A DNA stretch of 34,944 nt from positions 1 to 34,944 of IMG/VR virus record IMGVR_UViG_3300021375_000091, one strand, 5' to 3'. The notes under the pieces are model-generated. The model searched no databases, was not told the DNA's origin, and saw only the letters and a list, made by a program, of their open reading frames with translations. Both the position numbers and the translations under genes were made by a program. Positions 5,871 through 31,382 of the stretch are shown piece by piece. Each line of letters starts with the position of its first letter. Within the stretch, counting starts at the first letter, position 1. The stretch is from a virus.

Positions 5871-7079
5871 ATGGCAATAACAAAAGCATCCCTTATAGAT
5901 TTAAATGGTAACGAAATGATTCTTGATGCCGATGCAGATACTACAATAACTGCTGATACAGATGACCAAATCGATATAAAAGTTGGAGGCACAGATTTAA
6001 TTAGAATAGATTCTAGTGGTTTAGGAGTTGGAATAGTTCCTGCTGAAATATTAGATTTAAAAGCAGCTTCAGGAGATACAAGAATTAGATTAGATGCTGC
6101 AAGTGGTTCAGATACAGAAATTAAATTTTTTAATGATAGTACAGCACAATTTACTATAGGGCATGATGATGCTTCAGATACGTTTAGAATAGGTGGTGCA
6201 AATGTAGATGACCCTCATTTTGCATGGGGAAAAGATGGAAGTTTAGTTGTTACTTGTGATGCTGGAGGACATACAGTTTTTAATGAAAATTCTGTAGATG
6301 CAGACTTTAGAGTCGAATCAGATACTAATGCTCATGCTTTATTTGTAAATGGTGGTAATAATTCAGTAGGAATAAATACATCTGCTCCTGATGGTGCTTT
6401 AACTGTAGTTGGAACTGCTACATCTGGTGATTTATTAGCTCGTTTTCAACATAGCGTAAACGATAGTAATATAAAAGCAATAAGAGTTAATGCTCCAAAT
6501 GCTAGTGGTACTCAAGGTTATGTAGATTTAGGAGTTGACCCAGATACTACACAAGGAGGATTAGCTGTATCTACAAGTAGTGGAGGGCTACTTGCTGGTA
6601 ACGCTAATTTAAATAACGCAGCTATTATTTGGGATAGTAATAAAATAGTATCAATGCCGGGTCAACCTGCTTTTTCAGTTGTCCCTACATCCTCTCAAAG
6701 CAATATAACAGTAAATGACGAGACTGTTGTAGCTTTTGGTACGGAAATATACGATATAGGTTCTAACTTTGCAAGTAATACATTTACAGCACCAGTAACA
6801 GGTAAGTATCAGTTAAATGTTAATCTACGTCTGCAAGATGTGGACTCAGCAGCAGCTTACTATCATATAAATCTTGTAACTAGTAATAGAACTTATTACA
6901 GCATAGTTGACCCTGATTTTGGACAAGATGCTGCTTATTATACGATGCAGTTGTCAGTTTTAGCAGACATGGATGCAAATGACACAGCATTATTAAAAAT
7001 TTATCAGGGGGGTGGAACAGCACAAACCGATATACATGGTGGTATTTGGACCAGTTTTTCAGGCTACTTAGCTACTTAA
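5871..7079 (+). CDS. Tail fibre-like protein with C1q-like C-terminal domain
   Basis: A 402-residue Gly/Asp/Ser-rich protein. Residues 1-55 (MAITKASLIDLNGNEM, then repeated D-A-D-T strands and LIRIDSSGLGVG) form the fibre-type beginning common in marine phages. The middle has short beta repeats. The last roughly 135 residues (from PAFSVVPTSSQSNITVNDE) match the C1q/TNF-like jelly-roll pattern: FGTEIYDIGSNF, FTAPVTGKYQLNVNL, then strands ending HGGIWTSFSGYLAT. Such trimeric jelly-roll tips bind receptors or stabilise fibres. It is the first of three fibre genes here and shares the MAITK/MALTK opening with two downstream proteins. Confidence 0.7.
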   Translation: MAITKASLIDLNGNEMILDADADTTITADTDDQIDIKVGGTDLIRIDSSGLGVGIVPAEILDLKAASGDTRIRLDAASGSDTEIKFFNDSTAQFTIGHDDASDTFRIGGANVDDPHFAWGKDGSLVVTCDAGGHTVFNENSVDADFRVESDTNAHALFVNGGNNSVGINTSAPDGALTVVGTATSGDLLARFQHSVNDSNIKAIRVNAPNASGTQGYVDLGVDPDTTQGGLAVSTSSGGLLAGNANLNNAAIIWDSNKIVSMPGQPAFSVVPTSSQSNITVNDETVVAFGTEIYDIGSNFASNTFTAPVTGKYQLNVNLRLQDVDSAAAYYHINLVTSNRTYYSIVDPDFGQDAAYYTMQLSVLADMDANDTALLKIYQGGGTAQTDIHGGIWTSFSGYLAT

Positions 7080-11700: not shown

Positions 11701-13064
11701 CATGGGGTGCTATCGGTGGTGGTGGTACTAATACATTTACACACGATGTATTTACAGCTAATGGTTCTACAACTGCATTTGCTTTAAGTCAAACAACAGA
11801 ATCAGAAAATAATTTAATAGTTTTTGTAGACGGTGTATTCCAAGAACAAAGTGCATACTCTATAGCTACATCAAGTGGTACAACTACTTTAACTATGAGT
11901 GCTGCTCCTGCTAACGGAAGAAAGCTAGTAGTATATTCAGTAGCTGCAGGTGTATCAGGTTCTAATCTAAACATAGACACAATGACAGGGGATGGTAGTG
12001 ATACTACTCTAACTCTAAGTATAGCTCCTGTAAATGAAAACAATACACAAGTATTCTTTGATGGTGTATATCAGAACAAATCAACATACAGTATCTCAGG
12101 TACAACTTTAACATTCTCTACAGCTCCTCCAACTGGTGTGGCTGTTGAGGTTATGACATTTACTCAAACTGATATTAATGTTCCTGTAGATGGAACTATT
12201 ACTACAGCTAAGATTGTAGATGATGCTGTTACAAGTGCTAAGTTAGATACTAATATAGACATAGCAGGTACGTTAGATGTAACTGGTGCAGCTACGTTGG
12301 ATAGTACGTTGGCAGTAGCAGGTGTGACTACTTCAGGAGGTGTAGTTTCTACAAGAGCAGGAGATTCTAGTCAATTTATTAGAACAGGAGGAAGTAACAC
12401 TACAGGATTTGGAGATTCATTATATCTTTTACATTCAACTACTGGAAACATGGCAGAAGATTTTGGTATAGGAATGACTTTTGCAGTTAAAGATTCAGGA
12501 GTAACACAGTCTCTAGGAGACTTAGGATATACAAGAAGAGGTGCAGATAATACTGCTGATTTTATATTACAAACTTACAATGGTGGTACAAGAGCTGAAA
12601 AGTTTCGTGTTCTGGCAGCAGGTGGTATTTGTTTCAATGGAGATAAAGTAGCAGCTAATGCTTTAGACGATTACGAAGAAGGTACTTTTACTGCAAGTTT
12701 AACTTTTGGTGGAAATGATGCAGGTATAAGTTATGTTACTCAAATTGGAAAATACACTAAAATTGGAAACACAGTCCATTGTCAAATAAGAATTAAATTA
12801 GATGATAAAGGAACATCAACAGGAATTGCACAGATTGCTTTACCTTTTGCAGCTTCTTTAGCTACAGGAGAATATCCAACAGCTTTTATTAGTCATCACA
12901 ATGGACCGACTTCTCAATTATACGGTCTTATAAATGCAAGTGGTACTAATGCACAACGTCTTGATATTGGTGTATTTGATGGAGATGCAAGTTATACAGC
13001 AGCTACACAAACTACTATAGGTGACAATATAAGAATGAGTGTATCTCTTACCTATAAAGTATAA
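8733..13064 (+). CDS. Giant repeat-rich tail fibre protein
   Basis: A 1443-residue Thr/Asp/Gly-rich protein, the largest in the window. Residues 1-55 (FVDGDTVTAALFNDEYNQLV, then HAHDG) form a virion-anchoring N-terminus seen in many marine phage fibres. Residues about 100-1000 are beta-repeat shaft: DLGTSSLEFKDLYLDGTAHI-type repeats, four identical TSTAAELNILDGV units (507-558), a paired IASKAI/DSNKDIT block and two TVGAMVSSNTE blocks. Residues about 1000-1150 hold two copies of a VFVDGVFQ/VFFDGVYQ domain known from T7-like fibres. The last 133 residues are the LDDYEEGT/KYTKIGNTV tip domain, shared with the fibre upstream. The role is probably host recognition. Its stop overlaps the next start by one base. 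Confidence 0.8.
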   Translation: MAGYVRQSSFVDGDTVTAALFNDEYNQLVNAFHNSTGHAHDGTAASGPVIGIIGDAGETSPNNKVLIDTTNNYIEFYVEVSSNPVQQLYIADGAIIPVTDNDVDLGTSSLEFKDLYLDGTAHIDTLDVDANAGIIGNATVGGTLGVTGNTTLTANLTVNGNTTLGNAASDTVTITADVASDIIPSADSTHTLGDSSNYWSHGYIDAITTTGNVAVGGNLTVTGTTTFNGGTITMGDAATDNVVFGADVDSNIIPDDDDTYDLGSSSQEWRNLYIDGTANIDSLVADTADINGGTIDSATIATSDITVGSGKTLDVSSGTFTLADNQISGDKVEGGTIAATTVTTLTSTTGNITSVNATTVDTTNIELTNLKAKDGTAAGSIADSTGVVTLGSSVLTTTDINGGTIDGTIIGGSSAAAITGTAITGTSFVIGNADINEAELETIDGVTAGTVAASKAIVVDSNKDFTGARNITLTGELDAGSLDVSGDVDVDGTLETDALSINGTTVTSTAAELNILDGVTSTAAELNILDGVTSTAAELNILDGVTSTAAELNILDGVTASATDINLIDGITNGTVIASKAIITDSNKDITGGRNITISGELDAATLDISGDADIDGTLEADAITIGGVTLAETISDTVGAMVSSNTETNITVTYDDSDNTLDFVIGTLNQDTTGLAATATALATARTIHGVSFDGTANIDLTEVVQDTVGAMVSSNTESGITVAYQDGDGTLDFTVGTLNQDTTGTAALATQVTVSANDSTNESVYLTFVDGATGSQGIETDSALSYNPSTNTLTVANISVSGTQTIVDSVTMNANNAVIFEGSTADAHETTLTTIDATGDRTISLPNVSGTLPVLAAVSTTQITSTPEELNILDGVTSTTAELNLVDGSTAGSVVNSKAVVYGSSGEVAATSATVAGDLTVDTNTLAVVASSNRVGVNQASPDVSLDLGANTDAVHVPVGTTGQRPTGAAGYFRYNTSLSQFEGYTDAWGAIGGGGTNTFTHDVFTANGSTTAFALSQTTESENNLIVFVDGVFQEQSAYSIATSSGTTTLTMSAAPANGRKLVVYSVAAGVSGSNLNIDTMTGDGSDTTLTLSIAPVNENNTQVFFDGVYQNKSTYSISGTTLTFSTAPPTGVAVEVMTFTQTDINVPVDGTITTAKIVDDAVTSAKLDTNIDIAGTLDVTGAATLDSTLAVAGVTTSGGVVSTRAGDSSQFIRTGGSNTTGFGDSLYLLHSTTGNMAEDFGIGMTFAVKDSGVTQSLGDLGYTRRGADNTADFILQTYNGGTRAEKFRVLAAGGICFNGDKVAANALDDYEEGTFTASLTFGGNDAGISYVTQIGKYTKIGNTVHCQIRIKLDDKGTSTGIAQIALPFAASLATGEYPTAFISHHNGPTSQLYGLINASGTNAQRLDIGVFDGDASYTAATQTTIGDNIRMSVSLTYKV
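10251..10406 (+). repeat. Four tandem 39-base repeats encoding identical 13-residue units
   Basis: Four consecutive units each encode TSTAAELNILDGV exactly, and a fifth degenerate unit (TASATDINLIDGI) follows to 10445. The DNA copies differ at many synonymous sites, including AGT/TCC serine switches, so the protein repeat is kept while DNA identity is low. Related units recur near 11336-11400. Confidence 0.85.
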
Positions 13065-13306
13065 TGGAAATATCAACCTACATAATTTGGAACGTCTTTA
13101 TAACTTTAGTATTAGGACCTATCCTATATAACATAAAACAAAATACTGGTGAAGCTAAAAGGTTAGATATATTGTTAAACAAAACCAGAGAAGAAATAGC
13201 ACGAGACTACGTAACAAAACAAGAACTTAAAGATGACATGTCTAGACTAATGGACAGGCTAGAAAAACTTGACGAAAAGCTTGACAAACTCTTTGAAGTC
13301 AAGTAA
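13064..13306 (+). CDS. Small membrane-anchored coiled-coil protein
   Basis: An 80-residue protein whose ATG overlaps the giant fibre stop by one base (TAATG), suggesting coupled translation. Residues 5-24 (TYIIWNVFITLVLGPILYNI) form one transmembrane helix. The rest is a charged coiled coil with NKTREEIARDYVTKQELKDD and DRLEKLDEKLDKLF. Small proteins with an N-terminal membrane helix and this YVTKQEL-type coiled coil are found near structural and lysis genes of related phages. A holin-like or membrane-scaffolding role is possible but not shown; the distance from the lysozyme gene argues against calling it the main holin. Confidence 0.6.
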   Translation: MEISTYIIWNVFITLVLGPILYNIKQNTGEAKRLDILLNKTREEIARDYVTKQELKDDMSRLMDRLEKLDEKLDKLFEVK

Positions 13307-13322
13307 ACTATAAGGTATACTT

Positions 13323-16300
13323 ATGAAGAATAATAAAGGAAGAAAAAGATACAATAAGGTAAAAGCCAAAAGAGTTAAAGCTTATACAGGTTTTAATCCT
13401 AACATCAAAATAGATTTAGAAGGTCTAAAAGGTAAAAAACCTAAAATACCTAAAGATGGTTTTGATGCTGTTGATTTCCCTAAATCAGATACTACAACTG
13501 TAATACCTCCTAAAAACACTACGCCTGTATCTCCTGTTTTACCTTCTGTAATAGAAGATGGTAGGAATAGAGAAGAAATAGATACTGGTGTTCCAGTTCA
13601 AACAGACGTAACAACTGTTGAAGATGGAAACACAACAACTACATCTACTGGTATTCCTATAGGCACTAGACGAGTTACACGTGGGGGTATGGTTGTAATT
13701 TGGGATGGAACTAAATGGGTTAGAGAAGACCAATATGATGATGGTGGTGGAGATGATGATAATGGTGGTGGAGATGATACACCTAAAGAACCTACATTTG
13801 CTGAAGAACGAGAAGAAAGAGTAAAAAGAACTGGTAAAGGTGCTGAAGCTATTGCAAGTGGTACAATGCCAGAAAACCTACCTAAGATTCCAGATGCTAA
13901 AACTTTACTAGACGAAAACGGAAAGCCTTTAGAAGGTACAGAATTAGATTCTACTGCTGATTCTTTTAAAATGGATAGTGAAAATATTACTGGTGCTACT
14001 GCAGCTACAGTAGGCACACCAACAACTAAAGAAGATGTCTCTACAACTGATGCAGACCAAGCAGATGAAACTATAGGTCAAGATTTAACAGCTAACAAAA
14101 TGACAGCACAGACTGTTTCAGATACAGTTATTCCTGTCGATGCTGCTCAAAGTACAGTTACTCAAGGACCTATTGGAGATATTCAAGGTACAATTACTGG
14201 AGAAGCTAAGTCTGCAATGATAGACGAAGCTGAAGCTGCTATTGGTAAAGCTAAAAATGTAGATGCTGTTATTTCAGGTAATGCTTTTGTACCAGAAGTA
14301 AAAAATAGTGGTGCAGGTGTTGCTGCTACTCCAGAAGCTGAAAAGAACGAAAGAGCTGCTATCACAGGTACTCCTGCTGATGATGCTACTTCTGCACAGA
14401 TTATAGGCACAGTAGGCTATGAAGCTTCTAAGTCTAGGGTAGTTACAGGACAAGCTGCTAAAGGTGCTGCTGCATCTATGATAGCTCAAACTGCTAATAT
14501 ACCTGATGCTATTGCTGCTGCTATTGTAGAAGACCCTGCAACTATGACAGCTCAGATAGCTAATGAAGATGTAGAAGTACAAGCTGCAGTTGCTGCATTG
14601 CCTACAGAAGCTTTAGTATCTTCACAGATGGAAAGCTTACTAGGTGGTATGGAAGATGGTAACATACCTGCATGGGCTAAACCTGCTGTTGATGCAGTTA
14701 ATGCTGGTATGGCTCAAAGAGGTCTTAGTGTATCTACTGTAGGTAGAGACTCACTTTTTAATGCTATTATACAAAGTGCTATGCCAATGGCACAAAGTAA
14801 CGCACAAGCTTTACAAGCTAGAGCAGCTCAAAATTTAAGTAATCAACAACAAGCAAACTTACAAGAGTCTACTCAAGAACAACAACTAAGATTACAGAAT
14901 CTAGCAAACAGACAAGATGCTGCTAGTCAAACTGCACAGATGTCTCAGCAAATGAAGACAATGCAAAGTCAGTTTAGACAACAAGCTGTTATGACAACTG
15001 CTGACCAACAACAGCAGACTAGAATGCAAAACTTGCAGAACCAACAAAATGCTGCAGTTTTAAATGCACAACAAGCACAAGCGATTAACGCACAGAATTT
15101 AGGAAACGAACAACAAGTAAATTTAGCTAACTTACAGATTGAAGCACAAACTGAAGGAGCTAATCAGAATGCAGAGAACCAAGCTAAACTAGCAGAGATG
15201 CAAGTAGCTGCAGATTTCTTATCTAAGAACGCTGGATTTAAACAGCAGATGGAATTAGCTAATTTATCTAACGAACAACAGATGCAGTTAGCAAATCTTT
15301 CAGCTCTTAATCAAGCAAGTTCTGAAAACTTAAGTGCTGCCCAACAAACTGAATTAGCAAATCTTAATGCTCAGATGAATACGAACATTAATAATTCTAA
15401 GTTGGCAAATGCAATGGGTGTAGCCCAACTTAATGTTGACCAACAAAGAGCTATGCAAAATGCTGGTATGGTTGCTAACATGGATATGGCTAAGTTTACA
15501 ACTGAGCAACAAGTAGAATTAGCTAACAGTAAATTTATGCAGACTGTACAAATACAGAACATGAATGCTGAACAACAAGCTATTATGCAAAAAGCTACAG
15601 CTATGGCTCAGATGGACATTGCTAATTTAAGTACTAGAGAAAGACTAGCTGTTGAAAACGCTAAAAACTTTTTAACAATGGATATGGCTAATCTTAATAA
15701 TAATCAACAAGCTAACATGATGAAAGCTCAACAGGCTCAGCAACGATTGTTATCTGACCAAGCTGCACTAAATGTTGCTGAACAATTTAATGCTACTAGT
15801 GCAAATCAAACAGACCAGTTTATGGCTAGTATGGCTGCTAATATGAGTCAGTTTAATACTTCTCAAACTAACTCTATGGAACAATTTAACAACTCTCAAA
15901 AGAATGCTGCTGAAGCTAGAAGGGTTGGTAACGAAGCAGAAGCTTTAAGATTACAAGCACAATTAGATACACAAGTAAGTCAATTTAATTCTGCACAATC
16001 TTTTGAACAAGAAAAGTTTAATACAGCAAATGAAACAGCTATAGCACAAAGTAATGTAGCATGGAGACGACAAGCTAATACAGTAGATACTGCAGCACAA
16101 AATGCAGTTAATCAACAGAATGCACAGAATGCATTTGGACTAGCTGCTTCTGCACAAAACTTTTTATGGCAAGAACTTAGAGACCAAGCAGACTTTAACT
16201 TTAGAAGGTGGGATAACGATGAACAACGTAAAGCTTCTTTGTTAATTGCTGCTCTAGGAAACGAGACAGGAGCTTCTAAAGAAAGTAACTGGAACACAAA

Positions 16301-16343
16301 CCTGACTGCAATTAAAAGTTTAGTTGATGGTTGGTTAGATTAA
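13323..16343 (+). CDS. Large internal virion protein with long 11-residue helical repeat
   Basis: A 1006-residue protein. Residues 1-45 are strongly basic (KNNKGRKRYNKVKAKRVKAY). A flexible Thr/Asp/Gly segment follows with DDGGGDDDNGGGDD near 140, then an Ala/Thr-rich helical region to about 480. From about residue 491 to 941 the sequence runs in about 40 uninterrupted hendecads, rich in Gln, Asn, Ala, Met and Leu with little charge. This predicts a straight or slightly right-handed amphipathic helix or coiled coil some 65 nm long. The C-terminal 65 residues (FLWQELRDQADFNFRRWDND) are aromatic and charged. Position between fibres and the other ejection proteins suggests a protein ejected with DNA or forming a trans-envelope conduit. 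Exact role is unknown. Confidence 0.7.
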   Translation: MKNNKGRKRYNKVKAKRVKAYTGFNPNIKIDLEGLKGKKPKIPKDGFDAVDFPKSDTTTVIPPKNTTPVSPVLPSVIEDGRNREEIDTGVPVQTDVTTVEDGNTTTTSTGIPIGTRRVTRGGMVVIWDGTKWVREDQYDDGGGDDDNGGGDDTPKEPTFAEEREERVKRTGKGAEAIASGTMPENLPKIPDAKTLLDENGKPLEGTELDSTADSFKMDSENITGATAATVGTPTTKEDVSTTDADQADETIGQDLTANKMTAQTVSDTVIPVDAAQSTVTQGPIGDIQGTITGEAKSAMIDEAEAAIGKAKNVDAVISGNAFVPEVKNSGAGVAATPEAEKNERAAITGTPADDATSAQIIGTVGYEASKSRVVTGQAAKGAAASMIAQTANIPDAIAAAIVEDPATMTAQIANEDVEVQAAVAALPTEALVSSQMESLLGGMEDGNIPAWAKPAVDAVNAGMAQRGLSVSTVGRDSLFNAIIQSAMPMAQSNAQALQARAAQNLSNQQQANLQESTQEQQLRLQNLANRQDAASQTAQMSQQMKTMQSQFRQQAVMTTADQQQQTRMQNLQNQQNAAVLNAQQAQAINAQNLGNEQQVNLANLQIEAQTEGANQNAENQAKLAEMQVAADFLSKNAGFKQQMELANLSNEQQMQLANLSALNQASSENLSAAQQTELANLNAQMNTNINNSKLANAMGVAQLNVDQQRAMQNAGMVANMDMAKFTTEQQVELANSKFMQTVQIQNMNAEQQAIMQKATAMAQMDIANLSTRERLAVENAKNFLTMDMANLNNNQQANMMKAQQAQQRLLSDQAALNVAEQFNATSANQTDQFMASMAANMSQFNTSQTNSMEQFNNSQKNAAEARRVGNEAEALRLQAQLDTQVSQFNSAQSFEQEKFNTANETAIAQSNVAWRRQANTVDTAAQNAVNQQNAQNAFGLAASAQNFLWQELRDQADFNFRRWDNDEQRKASLLIAALGNETGASKESNWNTNLTAIKSLVDGWLD
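14793..16145 (+). repeat. About 40 hendecad (33-base) protein repeats without insertion
   Basis: Reading from residue 491, successive 11-residue units align with no gaps, for example LANLSNEQQMQ, LANLSALNQAS, VAQLNVDQQRA, MAKFTTEQQVE, IANLSTRERLA and MANLNNNQQAN. A later run has QFNATSANQTD, QFMASMAANMS, QFNTSQTNSME and QFNNSQKNAAE. In the middle, units alternate in a 22-residue super-repeat. DNA copies are divergent. Confidence 0.8.
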
Positions 16344-16357
16344 TATAGGAAAAAGAC

Positions 16358-17545
16358 ATGGGATTTTTAAGAAAAGTTGGAAAGAAAATAAAAAAAGTAT
16401 TTAAGAAAATAGGCAAAGCTATTAAAAAAGGTTTTGGTAAAGTTGCTAAAGCTTTTGGAAAGTTAGGTCCATTAGGTTCTATTGCTTTATCTTTTCTACT
16501 TCCGGGCATAGGTAATATGCTGACAGGGTGGCTAGGTAATATGGGCAAGTTTGGTAAATTTATTATGGATGTTGGTTCTAAAATTAAACAAGGAGCTACT
16601 TGGATTAAAGATGGAGTAGGTACTGTGTTTAATAAAGTAAGTGATGCTATTGAATTTGGTATGAACAAAGTAAGTCAACCATTTATGAAAAAAGGTGCAC
16701 GAGGAATGGGAAGTGCATTTAGAGATTTTGTAAGTGATGTAACTGGTGGATTCATAGACCCATCTGATAAAGGAAATATTTTTAATAAAGACCTTGCATT
16801 AAAAACTAAAGATGGTGAATTATTAAGTGAACTAACTAGAGACGAATTAAAAGTATTAGATGCTAGTGGTGAGTTAGATGCTATAAAAGCTTCTGCAGAT
16901 TTAGGAAGAAGTCAAAGTGCTTTTATGCGAGATGAGTTTAGAACTATTTCTGACAAAGAAGGCTTTACACCTGACGATTTAAAATTAAAAAAAGATGAAG
17001 TATATGGTGGTTTTAATGAAGCAACTAAGCAACATGAAATTTTTAAAAGTCAAGAAGCTTTTGATAAATATGCTGGAGGTACATTTGATTCTGCTGTTGG
17101 TGGATTAACCCCAGAAGATATGATAGCTAAAGCAACAGACAGTAAAAAAAGTATTTGGGATGGTAAACAAAAAGACCAAAGCATTAGAGAATATATAGGG
17201 GATAGTAAAGAAGCAGGTGTTTATAAAAAAGTAGGAGCTTTAAGTACATATGGCATGACTCAAATGGAAGGAGAAGCTCAAATAGCTGCTTACAACGCTA
17301 GAGTTAAAAAAGATAAAGCAGATTACTTTACAGATGTAGGTCTTGATAGTCTTGCAAACAGAACAAACTATAGTGTAACACAACCTGCAAACTTTATTGA
17401 TACTACAACTTTTGATATAGGTAAAGATTTAAATGACCAGTTCTTAATGTCTATGAACATACAAGGTCCTAAAGTATCTGGATTTGATGTAGGTGGTTAT
17501 GGTACTACTTACGAAGATGTAATAGAAAAACTAGCAACTGTATAG
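16358..17545 (+). CDS. Virion protein with cationic amphipathic N-terminus (probable ejection protein)
   Basis: A 395-residue protein. Residues 1-40 are a Lys-rich amphipathic helix (GFLRKVGKKIKKVFKKIGKA, continuing KKGFGKVAKAFGK), followed by a hydrophobic segment (GPLGSIALSFLLPGIGNML, about 42-60) and another GXXXG-like helix (WLGNMGKFGKFIMDVG). This resembles membrane-active peptides. The remaining 300 residues are soluble and mixed helix/loop with no known motif. Proteins with such an N-terminus occur among internal virion proteins of related phages. It lies between the hendecad protein and a small acidic protein, all in one orientation. I infer that it inserts into the host membrane during DNA entry; this is not shown by sequence alone. 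Confidence 0.6.
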   Translation: MGFLRKVGKKIKKVFKKIGKAIKKGFGKVAKAFGKLGPLGSIALSFLLPGIGNMLTGWLGNMGKFGKFIMDVGSKIKQGATWIKDGVGTVFNKVSDAIEFGMNKVSQPFMKKGARGMGSAFRDFVSDVTGGFIDPSDKGNIFNKDLALKTKDGELLSELTRDELKVLDASGELDAIKASADLGRSQSAFMRDEFRTISDKEGFTPDDLKLKKDEVYGGFNEATKQHEIFKSQEAFDKYAGGTFDSAVGGLTPEDMIAKATDSKKSIWDGKQKDQSIREYIGDSKEAGVYKKVGALSTYGMTQMEGEAQIAAYNARVKKDKADYFTDVGLDSLANRTNYSVTQPANFIDTTTFDIGKDLNDQFLMSMNIQGPKVSGFDVGGYGTTYEDVIEKLATV

Positions 17546-17554
17546 GAGTAATTA

Positions 17555-18178
17555 ATGGAAAATCAAATAGCACAAGGAGCAGAAGAACATATTTTTGAAA
17601 GGCACACTCCCGGTCAGTCTTTGACTAATTCTAAAGAACAACCTTATCCATGGGAACAACCTCCACAAATGACTTCTGTAAAAGAAGCTACACAAAAAAT
17701 ATTCTTAGGTTTATTAGAAGATAAAAATTTATCTACGGTTACAAATTTAATGGCTGAAGGTACTCCTATTGATGATGTAGCTCAAATGTTATTAATGACA
17801 GGATTTCAAAAAGGTAAGTTTAATCCTGATATGATGTTACAATTATTAGAACCAACTATGTATATGTTGTTAGCTATTGCAGAAAAAGCAGGTATTAGAC
17901 CAACACTTGACAGACCCGGAGAAGAAGAATTAGAAGAAAGTGATGAAGATACTGTTAAAGAAGAAATGTTACAACAACAAGAATTTAATAAATCTATCGG
18001 TCCGGGAGGCAGATTTCAAGATGCAGTTGTTAAAAATATTAACCCTGCTTCAGTCGGTGGAGAAATACAACAAAAACTAGCAGACTTAGATATGAGTAAA
18101 ATGAAAGAAAGTATACTACAAAAACGTAGACCTGCTATGCAACAAAAAGAAAGTTTACTAGGTAAAACAGGAGTTTAG
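17555..18178 (+). CDS. Conserved acidic phage protein, function unknown
   Basis: A 207-residue acidic protein preceded by AGGAGTAATTA. It has FERHTPGQSLTNSKEQPYPW near the N-terminus, then a helical domain (about residues 50-120) with LMAEGTPIDDVAQMLLMTGF and GKFNPDMMLQLLEPTMYMLL, then an acidic loop EEELEESDEDTVKEE and a charged helical tail. I recognise the HTPGQSLT and GFxKGKF patterns from unknown proteins lying among internal virion genes of marine phages. It has no signal peptide; the hydrophobic helices look like a folded bundle rather than membrane segments. A virion or assembly-chaperone role is inferred from location only. Confidence 0.65.
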   Translation: MENQIAQGAEEHIFERHTPGQSLTNSKEQPYPWEQPPQMTSVKEATQKIFLGLLEDKNLSTVTNLMAEGTPIDDVAQMLLMTGFQKGKFNPDMMLQLLEPTMYMLLAIAEKAGIRPTLDRPGEEELEESDEDTVKEEMLQQQEFNKSIGPGGRFQDAVVKNINPASVGGEIQQKLADLDMSKMKESILQKRRPAMQQKESLLGKTGV

Positions 18179-18180
18179 AT

Positions 18181-20442
18181 ATGGCTGAGAGTTTTAGCGA
18201 TATAATGAGTAATTACAAAGATATGAGCATTGAAGAGCTTGGTGGTTCTTTATTGCAACGACAATCTGACCAAGCAGCAGCAGCAGCTAAACGAGCTAAG
18301 AAACAAGACAGAGTTCAACAAGCTTTAGCACTTATGCTTACTGGTCAAGCTATTTTTAAAGGTGCTTATAATAAAAGGTCTAAAGAATTAGATGACCGTA
18401 TGGCTTTTGATGAAATTAATAATGGAGCTCAAGCTAAACAAATGTCAGGTCTTTCTAATGTTATAAGTGTTATTCCTGATAATTTTCATACTGATAAAAG
18501 CACAGAAGAAAGAGCTAATTTATTTTTAACAGAAAAAGGTGGTTTTTATAAAGCTCAATTAGAAAATAAATGGAGTCCTTATATTGATAGTCAAATTAAA
18601 ATTTCCTATCCTAATTTAGAAGAATTTAAAACATCAAATCCTGCTGCATATTCAACTCTTAAAAAAGAAGCCTTACAACAACTATCTATAGATTTATTTT
18701 CAAAAGATGATACAGGCGTAGAAAAATATAAAAGATTTGAAAACGAACTTAGAGATATTTTTAAAAATGAAGATGGCTATGCTGATATGGATAGGTTAGA
18801 ATTATTAAGAGCAGGTCTTGGTTTAGATGAACATCGTTTAACTAGGCTTGAATCTCAAAACTATGAAATCTTAAGAAGAGAATTAAGAAATCGTTCTAAT
18901 ATAATTGGTGGTGTAAAAGATATGTTTCAACATATTGGTAATAGAGCAGAATCTAAAGGTGGCATAAATTTATTTAAAAACTTAACAGTTGATAAATTAC
19001 AACCTTCTCGTTTAGATACTGTGTTAGATGAGTTAGATTTTAAAGGCATGGTAGTTCCTATAGTTGACAAAGCTCTTGCTAGAATTAGAGTAAGCCCTAC
19101 TCGATATAAAAATGCAGTTGATTCTTTACCTCAAGAAACAAGAGATAGAGTAACTCAAGCTTATACTACTATGAAAAGTAAAATTGTAGATAAAGAATTA
19201 GCAAAGATAGACTCTAGAGGTTTATTATCTACAAATTATGGATTTTTTGCTAGGTCAGACGATACTATATTATCTGAATATAAATGGGACCATTTAACAA
19301 ATGTATTTGATGCTAATGAACCATTAAGAAATGAAATGTTAAAAGGTGCTACAGCATTATCATTACGTTTTAATGATGACCCAAATTTTGCAATGGATTT
19401 GTATAAAGAAGTTGAAGATGATTCAGAAAAAATAAATCAATTTAAAGTAGCAATACAAGACGAAGAATTTAGAAATCAATTTTCTATTGCTATGGTTATG
19501 AAAGCTGGATTTACAGACGATGAGTTTGGTTTTGATGGTGGTTATAGATATATAGAACCAAATATTGATGAAAAAAATATTTATCAAGAAGGATATAACC
19601 CAGAAAAATCAAGAGAATCTTTAGATTTAGTGTTGGGTGAAGGTATAGATGTAAGTCGTAAAGGATTTATTGCTACTAAAGAATATAACAATTTTTCTAA
19701 GAAAGGAAAAATTAAAAATTATGATATGATTGTAGAACAAATTTTAACAACAGATGTGTCAGAAACAGAAAGACAAAAAACTTTAGATTTCTTCTTTGAC
19801 TCTATTCCTAATCCACGAGGATTAAATCAACAAGAATATATAATGACTATGGAGTCTGAAATACGTCAAAGTAAACAAGTTGGAAAAGAAATTTTATTTA
19901 AATCTCGTAATGTTGGAAGAGATGTAACAATGGCAGCTATTAATGCTGTTACAGGATTGTCTGAAAATGAATCACCAGAATATGTAAAAAATTTACGATT
20001 GTTTATGAGAGACATAGCAAGAGTAGAATCTGATTTTGGAGAAAATGAAAATACTTTTTCTAATCCAAACTCGTCAGCTACTGGAATTTTTCAAGTAAAA
20101 GCTGATAAAGCAATGACTGAGGTTCAACGTAGAATTAAAGAACCTAATAGCTTTCAAAATTTAAAAACATATAACAAACAATTAAAAGAATCGTTAGGTA
20201 TAGATTTATCTACAGCTACTGCCGAAGATTTAGAAACTCCAATTTATTCAGCAGCTTTTGCAAGAGGTTATTTAATGACAGTAACAAAACCTATACCTAC
20301 TGACCCTCAAGCTCAAGCAAACTATTGGAGAAATAATTACAACAAAGGAGATAATTATTCGGTATCAGATTATCTAATAAAAAATAGATATTTTATAGAT
20401 ACGATGCAAGAAAAACTTGGAAATTTATTTGGAGAAGACTAA
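18181..20442 (+). CDS. Internal virion protein with C-terminal lytic transglycosylase-like domain
   Basis: A 753-residue protein, mostly charged helix, with an Ala/Lys-rich helix near residues 30-60. Residues about 605-745 resemble the lysozyme-like soluble lytic transglycosylase fold: IARVESDFG places a candidate catalytic Glu at 616, followed by NPNSSATGIFQVKADKAMTE, the usual SxAxGxxQ-type motif, and further on a YWRNNYNKG segment. Such domains in virion proteins cut a local hole in peptidoglycan during genome entry, as T7 gp16 does. It starts two bases after the previous stop, and its own stop overlaps the next ATG. The enzyme call is moderate because the motif is divergent. Confidence 0.65.
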   Translation: MAESFSDIMSNYKDMSIEELGGSLLQRQSDQAAAAAKRAKKQDRVQQALALMLTGQAIFKGAYNKRSKELDDRMAFDEINNGAQAKQMSGLSNVISVIPDNFHTDKSTEERANLFLTEKGGFYKAQLENKWSPYIDSQIKISYPNLEEFKTSNPAAYSTLKKEALQQLSIDLFSKDDTGVEKYKRFENELRDIFKNEDGYADMDRLELLRAGLGLDEHRLTRLESQNYEILRRELRNRSNIIGGVKDMFQHIGNRAESKGGINLFKNLTVDKLQPSRLDTVLDELDFKGMVVPIVDKALARIRVSPTRYKNAVDSLPQETRDRVTQAYTTMKSKIVDKELAKIDSRGLLSTNYGFFARSDDTILSEYKWDHLTNVFDANEPLRNEMLKGATALSLRFNDDPNFAMDLYKEVEDDSEKINQFKVAIQDEEFRNQFSIAMVMKAGFTDDEFGFDGGYRYIEPNIDEKNIYQEGYNPEKSRESLDLVLGEGIDVSRKGFIATKEYNNFSKKGKIKNYDMIVEQILTTDVSETERQKTLDFFFDSIPNPRGLNQQEYIMTMESEIRQSKQVGKEILFKSRNVGRDVTMAAINAVTGLSENESPEYVKNLRLFMRDIARVESDFGENENTFSNPNSSATGIFQVKADKAMTEVQRRIKEPNSFQNLKTYNKQLKESLGIDLSTATAEDLETPIYSAAFARGYLMTVTKPIPTDPQAQANYWRNNYNKGDNYSVSDYLIKNRYFIDTMQEKLGNLFGED

Positions 20443-23400
20443 TGCCTAATCAACTTGATGCATTTATGGATGCACTAGAAGAAGAGGAAAAAAAGAAACA
20501 ACAAGCCCTTCAAGAAATTAAAGTTCCAGAAGCTGTAGTTCAACCTATTCCTAATCAAACATCTAGTAAAACTGAACTTTATGATTCGACTATAGGTAAA
20601 GAGTTTAGTAATCCTAATTATAAACCTCTTTTTCAAAATACAGGTAAAAAAAGTTTAAGCGAATTAGAAGAAAATCCAGAGTTTGCTAAACGAGCTACTA
20701 GATTTTTACAAAGTATTAACGAAAACGATAATATTTTTGAATACTTACGAGATGCAGATTACAGTTTAAGTTCTGCTGCTATTCGTGCAGGTCAAACAAA
20801 TAGTTGGGATGAACAACAAATTGATGATTATGTATATTTAAAACAACAATTTGATAATGCTGAACTAAAAGGATTTAAAGAAAGATTTACTGCTGTTAAA
20901 GATATTGGTATAGATATATTAGGTGACCCTTTTAATATATTAGCAGCTTTATTTGCTATTCCAACTGGAGGAACTTCTTTAGCAACTAGAGGAGCTTTAG
21001 GAACTGCAGCTCAAGCTGGTTTAAAAAGATTAAGTGCTCAACAAATTGCAAAACGACAATCACTTAAAAAAGCTAAAACTTTAAGAGATGTAAAACAAAC
21101 AGCTAAAATTGGAGCTTTGGAAGGAGCTGCTATTGAAATGCCTCATGGTTATTTTCTTTCAGATATTGATGTTGATTTAGGTTTACGAGATGAAATAGAT
21201 GCTTCTATGATTGCTGGTCGAACACTTTTAGGTGCAGGTATTGGTGGGGCTGCCGGTGGCGTAGCTGGAGCTGTTACTGGTTTGTATGGTAATAGATATT
21301 TAACAAAAGAATTTAAGTATACAAACGAAACTGCTATTGATGATATTGCTGAATCTCAAACTAGAAAAGAAATTAATGATAATCAATTTTTAGAAGATAG
21401 TTTAGAACATAAAAGTAAAAATAATTTATATAAAATATTATCTAATACTCAAGGAAAACCCACTACTAAATTTTTAGCATGGGCAGAAAAATCAAAACCT
21501 TTACAAGAACTTCTGAAAAAATTTAGATACGATTATGATTCTGGAATGTTTAAAGAAGGATATCAAGGTGTTAAAGAAAAATCATATGGGTTAGCTTTAG
21601 GCGAAAGACAAGGCAAATATTTGTATGGTTTAGCTAAAGGATTAAATGTTTTATATAGAGTAGGATTTAGAGGTAAAATAATAGGAGAACAAAATGACCA
21701 ATTATTTACTTTACTATCTGACAAATCTATAAATTTTAAAAATATTGATAACTTAAAAAATAAAAATTATTCTAATAAGTTTGGAATAAATTTTAATATT
21801 AATGATGATATTATTAGTTCGTATAAAGGAGTTAAAACTCAAATTGATGATGCTTTTGAAGAAGGAAGGTCAGTAGGTTTATTTGGAACTAATATTAAAC
21901 AAGGTATGGGTTATTTACCTAGACTTTTTAAGTATGATATTCTTAACGACAAACGAGGAAAATTTGAACAACTTTTAATTAAGGCAGGTCATGCTGACCC
22001 ACTTAATGATATTGATGAAATTACAATTAAAACATCTGATGGTGTAAAGGTTAAAGGAATAAAAGAAGATGCAGTAGGAATTGACCAAGATGTTTTTGGT
22101 AGAGATTTTTTAAAAGATGCTGAAGGTAATTTAGATAAAGCTAAAGAACTTAAAGCTACTCAAATTGTAGACGATATGTTAGAGTATCGTTGGGTTCCAT
22201 TTGAATTAAGAAGTAAAAGAAAAGCTGGTTCGTCTGGTAGCTTTATGCAACAAAGAAGGTTTTCAAATCTTGAAAATAATGAAATACAAGAGTTTATTGA
22301 AACTGATGTTCAAACAATTTTAGAAGATTATTTTGTTAATATTTCTCAAGCTATAGAACGTACTAGATTTTTTGGTAAAAGTACAGACAATTTTAATAGT
22401 AAACAAATACAACCGGTTGTTGATGATTTAATAAATAAAGGTTTATCTAAAAAACAAGCTGAAGATGTTAGAAAGGGTTTATTGCTTATGCATAGCCGAG
22501 TAACTGGAATTGAAACTTTTTCTGAAAGTACATTAAAAAGAAACAATGCTGCAAGAGGAACTGCAGATTGGTTAAAATTATCACAACAAATGGCTCATTT
22601 ACCTTGGGCTACTTTATCAAGTTTAACTGAACCTTTAATATTATTAACAAGAGTAGGGGCTACAGATGTTCCTTTTACTATTACACAAATTGGTAAGGCT
22701 ATTGTAAAAGAAGGTGGTAGTGTTGTTGATAGAAGTTTAAAAGCTCTTTATAGATTACGTGGTGGTAAAACTAAAAATGTAAAAGATTTAGATGATGAAA
22801 CTTGGGGAGAACTATACAAAACAGGACTTGCTTTAGAACAAGCTGTACAAGAAAGAATTGAAGGTTTAGCTGGTGAAGGATTATATGGTCCAACTGCAAA
22901 AACAATGCAACAAGCATTTTTTAAAGCAAATTTATTAACACAATGGACAAAAGCTGTACAATTAGCTTCTTTTACTACAGGTAAAAGATTAATAAAAACA
23001 AACGCTAGACAGTTAGCTACAGGTAAAACTGTATTAGGAAGAAAATTAACTGAAAAAAATAAAAAATATTTAACTCAACAATTAAATGATTTAGGTATTG
23101 ATAAAACTAAAGCAGTTAATTGGTATAATAAATCATTAAGAAATAATAAATTTGATGATAGCCTTGCAAAAAAACAAGATTTTTATAGAGAAGATTTAAC
23201 ATCTGGTGCTAATAGATTTACAAAAGAAATTATTTTAAATCCAAGTACTGCAGAAGCTAATAGACCTTTGTGGTTTTCTACTCCTGCTGCTCAGTTGTTA
23301 GTACAGTTTGCTGGATATCCAACAGTTTTTAATAATACTATTTTAAGAAGATTTGCAAATGAATTTTATAATTATCCAGTACAAACTATTCCAAAATTAA

Positions 23401-23975
23401 TTCCAACTGCTTTGTTAATGACTGCAGTAGCTCATGTTGGAAACACAATTAGAAGTCAAGGCAATAATTATTATGATTATGAAACAGAAGAGCCAAAACC
23501 AGAAGGAGAAATGATTGGAGAAGCTTTACGTAGATGGGGAGGAACTGGACCTTTTGATTATGCTTATCGATTTACAGAAAATGAAGACCGTAATGCTGGG
23601 CAATTAACTTCTGCTTTAAAAACTTTTGCTGGTCCTTTACCTCAAGATGTAATTGATGGAATTTCATTTAGAAAAGGAATACCAGAAATTGCTGTAACAA
23701 ATATTCCGGGATATAGTATATTACCATATGAAACACGAAAAGATATTAGAAAATTTGGTAGAGATTTAACTAAAGAACCTAAAAAAGAAAAAGAAGATTA
23801 TAAATCATTATTTTCTAAAGGTGGTTTAGTTTATGATGTACCTAAAGTAGGCAATGAACCAGATGAAATTAAAATGCGAGGAGTAAACGCTACTTACAAT
23901 GAAGTAGCTGGGGTTATTCTTAAAGATGAAGAGGATAGAGGCATTACAAAACAAATGGAGGATTTGTTAAAATGA
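20442..23975 (+). CDS. Very large internal virion / ejection protein
   Basis: A 1177-residue protein whose ATG overlaps the upstream stop by one base. It is basic and mainly helical. Hydrophobic Gly/Ala-rich segments occur near residues 160-195 (DPFNILAALFAIPTGG) and 258-285 (GAGIGGAAGGVAGAVTGLYG), and another near 980 (PKLIPTALLMTAVAHVG). They could form a membrane channel. Size, position after the transglycosylase-domain protein and before lysozyme, and these segments fit the largest ejection protein of T7-like and marine podophages. No catalytic motif is evident. Its last four bases overlap the lysozyme gene (ATGA). Function is inferred from position and composition. Confidence 0.65.
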   Translation: MPNQLDAFMDALEEEEKKKQQALQEIKVPEAVVQPIPNQTSSKTELYDSTIGKEFSNPNYKPLFQNTGKKSLSELEENPEFAKRATRFLQSINENDNIFEYLRDADYSLSSAAIRAGQTNSWDEQQIDDYVYLKQQFDNAELKGFKERFTAVKDIGIDILGDPFNILAALFAIPTGGTSLATRGALGTAAQAGLKRLSAQQIAKRQSLKKAKTLRDVKQTAKIGALEGAAIEMPHGYFLSDIDVDLGLRDEIDASMIAGRTLLGAGIGGAAGGVAGAVTGLYGNRYLTKEFKYTNETAIDDIAESQTRKEINDNQFLEDSLEHKSKNNLYKILSNTQGKPTTKFLAWAEKSKPLQELLKKFRYDYDSGMFKEGYQGVKEKSYGLALGERQGKYLYGLAKGLNVLYRVGFRGKIIGEQNDQLFTLLSDKSINFKNIDNLKNKNYSNKFGINFNINDDIISSYKGVKTQIDDAFEEGRSVGLFGTNIKQGMGYLPRLFKYDILNDKRGKFEQLLIKAGHADPLNDIDEITIKTSDGVKVKGIKEDAVGIDQDVFGRDFLKDAEGNLDKAKELKATQIVDDMLEYRWVPFELRSKRKAGSSGSFMQQRRFSNLENNEIQEFIETDVQTILEDYFVNISQAIERTRFFGKSTDNFNSKQIQPVVDDLINKGLSKKQAEDVRKGLLLMHSRVTGIETFSESTLKRNNAARGTADWLKLSQQMAHLPWATLSSLTEPLILLTRVGATDVPFTITQIGKAIVKEGGSVVDRSLKALYRLRGGKTKNVKDLDDETWGELYKTGLALEQAVQERIEGLAGEGLYGPTAKTMQQAFFKANLLTQWTKAVQLASFTTGKRLIKTNARQLATGKTVLGRKLTEKNKKYLTQQLNDLGIDKTKAVNWYNKSLRNNKFDDSLAKKQDFYREDLTSGANRFTKEIILNPSTAEANRPLWFSTPAAQLLVQFAGYPTVFNNTILRRFANEFYNYPVQTIPKLIPTALLMTAVAHVGNTIRSQGNNYYDYETEEPKPEGEMIGEALRRWGGTGPFDYAYRFTENEDRNAGQLTSALKTFAGPLPQDVIDGISFRKGIPEIAVTNIPGYSILPYETRKDIRKFGRDLTKEPKKEKEDYKSLFSKGGLVYDVPKVGNEPDEIKMRGVNATYNEVAGVILKDEEDRGITKQMEDLLK

Positions 23976-25472: not shown

Positions 25473-25967
25473 ATGAAATTAATACCTACATTTAAAAGCG
25501 ACAAGGCTATTAGAAATTGCAAGTTTTGCATATTCTTTTGGTCTATGTTAATTATATTTTTTTCTGTAGAAAGTTTAGCAGATGAGATGGGTTTTAAATT
25601 TAAGTCACCTTCGTTTAATGGCAACAATACTAGCTCACATTATCTTACAATAGAAAACCAAGAGTTCAATCGTAAGATGACTATTAAAGAAGAGTTAAAA
25701 GCTTTACAAGAACAAATTAAAAGAGATAAAGAAAATACAACACTTGCAAGATTCATAAGAAACTTGGAGTCTCGTATTTATGCACAACTGTCAAGACAAT
25801 TAGTAGAGAATTTATTTGGGGAGAATCCTAGTACAGAAGGTACTATAGAACTTGAAGGGAATACCATTTCTTACACAAGTGATGGTGATATAATAACACT
25901 TACAATTACGGATGCAGATGGAAATGTCACGGTTATTCAGTTGCCTATTGGTAGTTTTACTTTCTAG
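25473..25967 (+). CDS. csgF: CsgF-like curli assembly protein
   Basis: A 164-residue secreted protein. The signal peptide has a long N-region and hydrophobic core (FFWSMLIIFFSVESLA) with likely cleavage near residue 37. The mature start MGFKFKSPSFNGNN matches the CsgF signature (FxFxNPxFGGN in E. coli), the segment that inserts into the CsgG pore. The central helix (LESRIYAQLSRQLVENLF) and the beta end (ITDADGNVTVIQLPIGSFTF) also parallel CsgF. In bacteria CsgF sits at the cell surface and couples curlin secretion to nucleation. Here it is the first gene of a five-gene accessory module and overlaps the CsgG-like gene by 56 bases. Family call is strong; activity in a phage setting is inferred. 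Confidence 0.82.
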   Translation: MKLIPTFKSDKAIRNCKFCIFFWSMLIIFFSVESLADEMGFKFKSPSFNGNNTSSHYLTIENQEFNRKMTIKEELKALQEQIKRDKENTTLARFIRNLESRIYAQLSRQLVENLFGENPSTEGTIELEGNTISYTSDGDIITLTITDADGNVTVIQLPIGSFTF

Positions 25968-26715
25968 TTGTGCAGTTATAAGTCAGAATGATGACTTAGT
26001 ATTAACAAAAAAAATACAGTCTCCTTCTACTATAGAGCTACAATCAGAAACATTAAGAAATTTACCAGCAGCTAAAGTACAGCCTACTATAGCTATATAT
26101 CCTAATAGCTTTAAAGATTTAACAGGGCAACGAAGAAGTAATAGTACTTTTGCTTTATTTAGTACAGCTATTACTCAAGCTCCAGAAGCTTTTTTAATTA
26201 GAGCTTTTAAACACACATCCGGTGGAAAGTTTTTTAGAGTTGTAGAACGTGTAGGTTTAGATGACCTTACAAAAGAAAGACAACTTATTAGAACAACTCG
26301 CAAAGAGTTTGAAGAAGATAACAAATTAAAACCTCTGCTTTTTGCAGGGTTGTTAGTTCAGGGTGGAGTAGTTTCGTATGAAGCTAATTTAAAATCTGGA
26401 GGATTGGGTGCTCGTTATTTAGGGATAGGTAATAGCAAACAATACAGAGAAGATACAGTTACAATATCATTACGATTAGTTTCTGTATCAACTGGTGAAG
26501 TGTTAATGGAAACTTTAGTAACTAAAAGCATTTTATCAACAAGTATTTCTCAAGATATATTTCGTTTTATTGAACAGCAAACAGAGCTAGTAGAAATAGA
26601 AGGTGGTGTAGCTGAGAATGAAAGTGTTTCTATTGCTTTACAAAAATCAATAGAGACAGGAGTGATGAATATTATAAACATAGGAATAGATAGAGGCTAT
26701 TGGGAATATGAATAA
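25912..26715 (+). CDS. csgG: CsgG-like outer-membrane secretion pore lipoprotein
   Basis: A 267-residue protein with a lipoprotein signal (CLLVVLLSSC, lipidated Cys20). Met3 and Met5 are alternative starts; all lie inside the CsgF-like gene. Signatures of CsgG are clear: FKDLTGQ, LFSTAITQAPEAFLIRAFK, VERVGLDDLTKERQLIR, YEANLKSGGLGARYLGIG (156-173), LRLVSVSTGEVL and IETGVMNIINIGIDRGYW. CsgG forms a nine-subunit outer-membrane channel for unfolded curlin. The Phe of the pore constriction (E. coli Phe56) appears kept as Phe83, but the positions of Tyr51 and Asn55 seem to be Ser or Asn and Leu, with one extra residue nearby. The protein stops right after the RGYW motif and lacks the extra tail of E. 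coli CsgG. Confidence 0.9.
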   Translation: MQMEMSRLFSCLLVVLLSSCAVISQNDDLVLTKKIQSPSTIELQSETLRNLPAAKVQPTIAIYPNSFKDLTGQRRSNSTFALFSTAITQAPEAFLIRAFKHTSGGKFFRVVERVGLDDLTKERQLIRTTRKEFEEDNKLKPLLFAGLLVQGGVVSYEANLKSGGLGARYLGIGNSKQYREDTVTISLRLVSVSTGEVLMETLVTKSILSTSISQDIFRFIEQQTELVEIEGGVAENESVSIALQKSIETGVMNIINIGIDRGYWEYE

Positions 26716-27418
26716 AATAATACTAAGTTTTGTAGCTATTATATCAATAGGTATATACGCTGCAGATAATGAAATATATGTTGAACAATCTGGTGCAACA
26801 GCAAATCTTGATTTAGAACAACTTGGTTCTGCTAATATTATCGGAGGTTTAAATTCTGTTGCAGGAACTTTAACACCTTTTGATTTAGATGGAACAGGTA
26901 TGACATTAGACATCAATCAAATTGGTGATACTAATAAGTTTTTAGGAGATATTCTTGCTGATAGTTTGACAGGTTTCTTTGAGTTTGATGGAGACAGTAA
27001 TAGTTTCACAATTCAAGTAGACCCAACAAACACATACGGAGCAGATAGTTCTAACTTAAATGTTGATGTAACTGGAAGTACTAACACTTTTACGCTTGAC
27101 TTAGCAACCAGTTCTATGGCTAGTAATACAGACCTTGATTGGATAATCAATGGTTCAGGAAACCAACTAGACTTTGATATAGATTATGATGGTGGTACAA
27201 GTTATGTAGATGTGGATGGTGATAGCAACACAGTAAGCTTTGATGGACAAGGCTATGCAGGTGGTTACTTTTACTTAGACCAGACAGGAAGTTCTAGAAC
27301 ATTTAACATACAACAACAGAGTACATTAGATAATGATTGGCTTAAGATACTTTCTACTGGCAGTAATGGTACTGTCTGTGTCATTCAAAACGATGGGGGA
27401 ACAGCAGTCGGTTGCTAA
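26708..27418 (+). CDS. Secreted curlin-like repeat protein (candidate CsgG/CsgF substrate)
   Basis: A 236-residue protein with a clean Sec signal (IILSFVAIISIGIYAA, cleavage near 18-19). The mature part has about nine strand-turn-strand units with alternating hydrophobics around G-x-x-N, such as EQSGATANLDL, EQLGSANIIGG, NQIGDTNKFLG, DGDSNSFTIQV, TGSTNTFTLDL, NGSGNQLDFDI, DGDSNTVSFDG and DQTGSSRTFNI. This is the curlin repeat style (QxGxxN), with Gln in four units only. It is acidic and lacks Cys apart from two near the C-terminus (224, 236) that could form a disulfide. The start overlaps the CsgG-like gene by eight bases. It is probably the exported fibre or surface protein. It could instead be a non-polymerising beta-solenoid. 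Confidence 0.7.
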   Translation: MNKIILSFVAIISIGIYAADNEIYVEQSGATANLDLEQLGSANIIGGLNSVAGTLTPFDLDGTGMTLDINQIGDTNKFLGDILADSLTGFFEFDGDSNSFTIQVDPTNTYGADSSNLNVDVTGSTNTFTLDLATSSMASNTDLDWIINGSGNQLDFDIDYDGGTSYVDVDGDSNTVSFDGQGYAGGYFYLDQTGSSRTFNIQQQSTLDNDWLKILSTGSNGTVCVIQNDGGTAVGC

Positions 27419-28442: not shown

Positions 28443-28443
28443 T

Positions 28444-31373: not shown

Positions 31374-31382
31374 AAGTTCTCC

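Follow-up and report, generated by a model that had tools for sequence, protein, structure and literature searches.

A hendecad repeat of stepwise length in a candidate ejection protein of HMO-2011-type phages

We report that a 1006-residue protein encoded on the plus strand (open reading frame 13323-16343) of a linear IMG/VR virus record of 34,944 bases (hereafter the window; G+C content 35%) contains one unbroken block of 11-residue units, and that the distance between the conserved anchors on either side of this block differs among its phage relatives only in multiples of 11 residues. By its sequence and gene context this hendecad protein belongs to the morphogenesis module of HMO-2011-type phages, and we take both the repeat family and its quantised length to be undescribed in the open-access literature. 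We give an even chance to the reading that it is an ejection or pilot protein whose helices would line up laterally to enclose DNA in a sheath or tube, in the manner of the H tube of phiX174, homology apart.

A first-pass annotation of the window had flagged positions 14793-16145, which are indeed in frame and correspond to residues 491-940 of this reading frame. Alignment of the relatives divides the protein into four parts, all encoded on the plus strand. Residues 1-416 (13323-14570) form a variable, low-complexity N-terminal part that is rich in indels and spans 65-721 aa across the 81 proteins that share the window's length class, some of whose reading frames are cut by contig ends. Residues 417-488 (14571-14786) form a conserved N-terminal anchor, recognized by alignment, by profile-HMM anchors and by its invariant residues (W.KPAV...RGLS.S..GRD...N.I...P.AQ). 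The unbroken hendecad block, defined by the repeat analyses and predicted to be helical, occupies residues 489-950 (14787-16172; about 42 units of 11), and residues 951-1006 (16173-16340), helical in the AlphaFold2 model, comprise a variable tail and the remainder of a conserved C-terminal anchor (approximately residues 905-985) that overlaps the end of the block.

The same annotation had proposed about 40 hendecads without insertion, and both the period and its continuity held up. Autocorrelation of hydrophobicity over 450 residues, judged against 1000 shuffles, peaks at lags 11 and 22 (z 5.9 and 7.3) and again at lags 33, 44 and 55 (z 6.2, 7.4 and 6.5), autocorrelation of residue identity peaks at the same lags from 11 to 55 (z 5.5-9.4), and residues 1-490 yield no 11-residue peak series by autocorrelation. 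A hidden-state repeat model that was free to break phase kept a single phase from residue 489 to residue 938 (41 units), or to residue 950 (42 units) with a profile pooled over the relatives. The units are old and diverged: their mean mutual identity is 2.1 of 11 residues (41 units), one pair shares at least 8, and Tandem Repeats Finder detected no 33-base tandem array in the DNA.

To compare lengths we used the distance between profile-HMM anchors on either side of the block (A490 and W914 in the window protein). Both anchors were found in 249 reading frames, of which 199 are distinct, and these fall on 11 distances from 149 to 644 residues, every one of the 199 equal to 6 modulo 11. The classes are 149 (3 proteins), 160 (63), 171 (1), 182 (3), 215 (2), 226 (6), 314 (34), 336 (1), 424 (81, window included), 534 (1) and 644 (4). 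The copy of HMO-2011 itself falls in class 226. All 22 loci scanned from named phage records fit the rule, as does CRP-212, whose copy was missed by the N-terminal HMM and measures 160 by eye. Three copies from gamma-proteobacterial phages (L018, L020 and L021) each showed one phase break near the C-terminal end of the block in the first repeat-model scan, and their anchor distances are nevertheless 6 modulo 11. With earlier regular-expression anchors, 8 of 85 measurable proteins lay off the pattern (462, 473 and 501) and a further 11 were without both anchors; we attribute the eight to an upstream second match having been taken, and no exception appeared among the 199 with the profile-HMM anchors.

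The block is also nearly free of gaps. At 45-80% identity, 108 of 113 relatives align to it gaplessly, with 0.24 gap openings per 1000 residues versus 3.9, 6.7, 8.7 and 15.4 in four comparable neighbour genes (21 hits in total); gaps are thus 16 to 64 times rarer within the block, in a comparison that lacks three other neighbours and the N-terminal part (no hits in the identity band) as well as the lysozyme gene. On the basis of the step length of 11 and the near absence of gaps, we conclude that register, and not mere composition, is under selection.

Parsimony on a tree built from the two anchors (115 tips, many of its supports weak) requires 14 length changes, the minimum for 11 classes being 10, and the 644 class sits at three places in this tree. 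Module duplication certainly contributes to some of the length steps: when the 534 class and three copies of the 644 class were aligned, the extra residues appeared as 55- and 110-residue pieces in the former and in two of the latter, and as a single 220-residue piece in the remaining copy. Blocks of the longer classes (L014, L227 and L231) contain similar 55- and 110-residue segments, and in L227 and L231 identity peaks at lag 110. Recent repeat slippage is an unlikely source of the quantised length in the window copy, given the divergence of its units and the lack of a tandem DNA array.

As a straight helix, the classes from 149 to 644 would measure approximately 22 to 97 nm. Phages of one host strain can differ in class: on FZCC0040, CRP-207 has 215 and CRP-3, CRP-235 and CRP-212 have 160, and on FZCC0023, CRP-9 has 215 and CRP-1, CRP-2 and CRP-13 have 226; two SAR11 phages from two host strains have 160 (HTVC033P) and 314 (HTVC115P). 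Envelope width can therefore be rejected as the sole ruler of length. For the same reason, and in view of the range of lengths among the relatives, the earlier argument that a helix longer than the periplasm is wide and longer than a capsid radius points to function does not simply hold.

The composition of the block departs from its first description as almost uncharged, with Gln/Asn and Met/Leu/Ala/Ile on opposite sides. Charged residues (D/E/K/R) account for 61 of 450 positions (13.6%; 35 acidic versus 26 basic) and are concentrated at two of the 11 unit positions, and Gln and Asn together make up 33%. The supposed two-faced arrangement is wrong, as a period of 11/3 = 3.67 residues accounts for 0% of the repeat's hydrophobicity signal on the Kyte-Doolittle scale and for 2% on the Fauchere-Pliska scale. 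Instead, harmonics 4 and 5 hold 80-84% of the folded hydrophobicity signal of the window protein and carry the main hydrophobic signal in all seven length classes tested, in which harmonic 3 takes no more than 0.08 (Kyte-Doolittle) or 0.13 (Fauchere-Pliska) of the signal. The maximal one-sided hydrophobic moment of the window block, sought over all angles between 80 and 120 degrees, is 2.26, no different from the shuffle mean (2.27). A one-sided amphipathic helix is ruled out by this absent moment and by the near-zero power at 11/3.

Plotted on a helical wheel of 11/3 geometry, the hydrophobic positions fall into two groups, 3/0 at about 323 degrees and 1/5/9 at about 134 degrees, with weighted means some 170 degrees apart, and the second-order amplitude of hydrophobicity (0.099) stands against a first-order amplitude of 0.008. 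Positions 6 and 10 (229 and 262 degrees) are charged in 37-39% of units versus 4-15% at the others, and Gln and Ser dominate the opposite positions 4 and 8 (33 and 65 degrees). The charge moment is strongest at 98.25 degrees per residue (3.43, versus a shuffle 95% limit of 2.78); this corresponds to a period of 3.66, the value of an 11/3 helix, which supports a helical fold. Variability is highest at positions 6 and 10 in the 314 and 424 classes and at positions 6, 4 and 10 in the 160 class; the Gln strip (positions 4 and 8) shows no special conservation, both positions being among the variable ones in the 160 class. Proline is absent from the block in six length classes (0 of 56,309 residues) and occurs 3 times in 2,552 residues in the seventh, and Asn occupies one unit position in 53-81% of units, depending on the class.

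Calculation thus supports an arrangement in which, as judged from the sequences, the hydrophobic residues form two nearly opposed seams and the charges one strip, with Gln and Asn filling the remainder. On the idealised wheel, two opposed seams, an exposed charged strip and an amide strip would meet the needs of a side-by-side sheet or a wide barrel; in assemblies from dimer to hexamer the seams would have to be much closer together. A beta-solenoid, which the recurrent Asn had brought to mind, was rejected on the basis of the composition, the 98.25-degree charge period and AlphaFold2 models without strands.

These AlphaFold2 models, which are of single chains and uninformative on oligomeric state, are consistent with a helix. 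For window residues 430-1006, predicted with 48 relatives, the model is all helix without strand (mean pLDDT 60.6, pTM 0.27), and its best-predicted part is a single 168-residue helix (residues 771-938) whose end coincides with the end of the block in the repeat model. A 459-residue relative of the 160 class, predicted with 40 others (mean pLDDT 50.7, pTM 0.25), has a disordered N-terminus followed by helices at 186-316 and 320-385, again without strand. Confidence is low to moderate, and all-helix output is readily obtained for sequences rich in Ala and Gln. Taken as models, these predictions suggest that the roughly 41 repeats probably form a very long helix.

Relatives of the protein occur in 26 phage records by tblastn (HMO-2011 and CHOED each being listed twice): HMO-2011, ten CRP roseophages, four pelagiphages, the Vibrio phage CHOED, two Aeromonas phages, the Pseudoalteromonas phage Slicky01, four rhizobial phages and one phage from a spring metagenome. 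Nearly all of these are annotated as hypothetical protein with no assigned function; one has no annotated feature and one (MW202701, L109:4600-7191) is labelled huntingtin, a misannotation presumably prompted by its richness in Gln. IMG/VR holds at least 447 relatives among 477 pattern-matching stretches, for which the best 80 were kept, and more by way of other queries; the sole match among genome contigs, in a Maricaulis metagenome-assembled contig, carries little weight for the host. Membership in the family (phage1322_25) is defined by sequence similarity together with the conserved anchors flanking the block, and the window protein shows both. Its gene is flanked by tail/lysis genes on one side and by larger genes downstream, an HMO-2011-type coat gene lies upstream, and the protein recurs in phages with a related coat protein (CRP-212 has a divergent copy). 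The coat protein of the window is closest to that of pelagiphage HTVC115P (60%), and a nucleotide search with window positions 3500-25000 found no near phage. Some metagenomic phages related to HTVC103P have a likely SAR11 host and others have unknown hosts (PMC8528129, in the text available to us).

Comparison of the hendecad protein with PHROGs, Pfam, NCBIfam and the PDB gave no convincing match, known ejection proteins included, and the best PDB matches (E 0.28 by phmmer, 0.32 by profile) are not phiX174 H. In the open-access literature, which does not include the HMO-2011 genome paper, the term hendecad combined with ejection protein matched only a phiX174 paper, and no paper on a coiled protein of HMO-2011 was found. 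In the portions available, neither PMC8528129 nor PMC6918029, which deal with the HMO-2011-type module, describes the hendecad protein, and virion mass spectrometry is not reported in those of PMC6918029, PMC8528129, PMC10410586 and PMC6256558.

The gene has the following neighbours. Just upstream (13064-13306) lies a gene for an 80-aa protein whose single N-terminal membrane-spanning stretch and charged tail suggest a possible holin or accessory lysis protein. Downstream, all on the plus strand, follow a 395-aa protein (16358-17545) with a Lys-rich amphipathic and then hydrophobic N-terminus, weakly matching tape-measure PHROGs and, by its sequence, a possible membrane-active partner; a 207-aa protein (17555-18178), the best conserved downstream gene with 225 matching reading frames in sequence searches; a 753-aa protein (18181-20442), of which the 13 aligned copies include two with an SLT domain and one with a phage lysozyme domain, the window copy having no Pfam match; and a 1177-aa protein (20442-23975) that matches virion-structural/endolysin PHROGs (phrog_7348, E 1.6e-50; phrog_6958, E 1.1e-18). 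A comparable gene order is found in HMO-2011, HTVC115P, Slicky01, phiM6, CHOED and MQM1, and in HMO-2011 the hendecad gene sits at the border of annotated tail-fibre genes and ejection-type genes. The CRP-235 relative (gp25, L255:1977-4511) bears an N-terminal LysM domain (E 8.7e-11), the only one among 50 N-termini scanned, and a C-terminal Peptidase_S74 domain; the latter also ends the relatives of CRP-3, CRP-738 and CRP-212 (E 6.7e-6, 1.7e-10 and 6.9e-7) and is absent from the window protein by Pfam.

Several further genes merit mention. In HTVC115P a gene for a lysine acyltransferase of the HlyC family (gp46, L017:16870-17316; PF02794, E 1e-15) lies directly between the hendecad gene and a gene for a Lys-rich basic protein, an arrangement that goes with hendecad genes of the HTVC115P type (314 class), and tblastn located the acyltransferase gene at 30 of the loci compared, HTVC115P and 29 from IMG/VR; we speculate that the enzyme might acylate lysines of the neighbouring basic protein and so aid its insertion into membranes. 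Elsewhere in the window, positions 5871-7079 encode a likely tail or receptor-binding protein with a C-terminal C1q domain (PF00386, E 2.7e-6), positions 25912-30192 encode three proteins that strongly match PHROGs without an assigned function (phrog_20175, 37870 and 35576), and positions 30405-33278 of the minus strand, opposite to the structural module, encode the small and large subunits of ribonucleotide reductase.

We propose that the product of the hendecad gene would be a structural component of the virion, probably an internal one, in an HMO-2011-type podovirus, and that its C-terminal 450 residues would fold as a single alpha-helix of great length or as a few helices in line. Held together side by side through their two opposed hydrophobic seams, copies would build a sheath or barrel whose outer surface bears the charged strip and whose interior bears the Gln/Ser-rich one. 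They would leave the virion together with the neighbouring 207-, 753- and 1177-aa ejection-type proteins and line or lengthen the route by which DNA crosses the cell envelope, working as the amide-lined alpha-helical H tube of phiX174 does. We infer the virion location from gene position and conservation; the oligomer, its lumen and its ejection are parts of the proposal. A trans-envelope tube or DNA sheath had already been suggested in the first-pass annotation; as a proposal it is compatible with the two seams and single charged strip, with the fixed register and with the neighbouring genes.

What favours an ejected helical conduit is the resemblance of the neighbourhood to the ejection set of T7, together with the hydrolase domains and the LysM domain of CRP-235. 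Against it, a T7-like ejectosome may already be supplied by the genes downstream, with no obvious need for a second tube, and length differs within one host strain, so that the envelope span does not set it; the variability of the Gln strip in the 160 class and the rarity of LysM among the N-termini also count against it. Alternatively, the long helices might be bundled about the portal or the DNA within the capsid and organise packing with no envelope conduit, which we consider rather unlikely. Such a core or spool is equally compatible with the register and helix evidence and with the independence of length from host, and the 644 class, at about 97 nm if straight, would have to bend or fold within a head that is about 70 nm wide in CRP-9/CRP-13 relatives (PMC8528129, available text). 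It leaves unexplained the hydrolase-bearing neighbour genes and the LysM domain of CRP-235, and it overlaps with the conduit, as the internal ejection proteins of T7 form first a core and later a channel (PMC8954989, in the part available).

We doubt still more that the block is the stalk of an external fibre or tail spike, that is, an oligomeric helical rod with a variable end and S74 as intramolecular chaperone. S74 chaperone domains are typical of trimeric fibres, and their presence at the C-terminus of the CRP-3, CRP-235, CRP-738 and CRP-212 relatives, which could mean fibres and so also speaks against the conduit, agrees with such a stalk, as do the highly variable N-terminal part and the annotated tail-fibre genes bordering the gene in HMO-2011. 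However, the buried face of a trimer predicts a strong periodicity of 3.5-3.67 residues, which is absent, and in the 81 proteins of the 424 class, that of the window protein, just 18-40 aa follow the anchor profile, which is too little for an S74 domain. It is very improbable that the block is a disordered or prion-like Gln/Asn-rich linker without fixed structure, as its amide content and the low AlphaFold2 confidence might suggest, since it tolerates few indels, steps in length by 11 in all 199 proteins, nearly lacks proline and is strongly constrained by position. Scarcely any weight goes to a membrane-coating amphipathic helix such as those of apolipoproteins, alpha-synuclein and perilipins: the period of 11 and the reduced charge would suit it, but the block has no one-sided hydrophobic moment, little of harmonic 3 in any of the seven classes and more acidic than basic residues. 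Apolipoproteins and synuclein contain eukaryotic 11-residue lipid-binding repeats, an analogy drawn in the first-pass annotation that finds no support here, as the hendecad protein shares their period and has no hydrophobic face and little lysine.

Among known systems, the conduit that we favour is closest to phiX174 H, a decameric alpha-helical tube of 170 A in which three hendecads and a transition are followed by heptads over 121 residues (PMC7354561, available text). Both have hendecads in a long helix (predicted in our case), richness in Gln and Asn, and charges on a separate strip. The three printed hendecads of H, a sample of three only, fit our repeat best at one shared offset (r 0.64 for hydrophobic, 0.60 for charged and 0.43 for amide residues), and the wheel pattern of the hendecad protein would be compatible with a decameric tube whose lumen is lined by amide and guanidinium groups. 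By contrast, the hendecad protein has about 14 to 59 hendecads and no heptads, comes from a dsDNA tailed phage and not an ssDNA microvirus, and has no sequence similarity that we could find to H. To our knowledge, T7 gp15 and gp16 are not hendecad repeats. In the available text on T7 gp14/gp15/gp16 and on the PhiM1 ejectosome (PMC8954989, PMC11440229 and PMC11784390), likeness lies in the proposed role, in the variable partner genes and in a set of small, medium and large proteins, some relatives having peptidoglycan hydrolase domains; for the downstream genes the likeness to gp14-16 is one of arrangement, sizes and domains.

HMO-2011-type phages are abundant marine dsDNA phages, and envelope crossing is known for T7-like phages and not for this type. 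A length quantised in exact helix repeats, in a stretch of 450 residues where indels are otherwise nearly absent, is an unusually clear trace, left by evolution, of an assembly that is rigid and depends on register. Together the classes form a natural graded set with which to ask what determines how long an internal phage protein is, and phages of the same host with different repeat numbers, such as CRP-207 and CRP-3 on FZCC0040, provide a ready test. We advance as a tentative and, taken whole, unlikely proposal that HMO-2011-type phages deliver their DNA through a homo-oligomeric alpha-helical tube for which each lineage has its own whole number of hendecads (about 14 to 59), grown by whole modules of 11, 22, 55 or 110 residues, which would make it a length-tunable and separately evolved dsDNA counterpart of the H tube.
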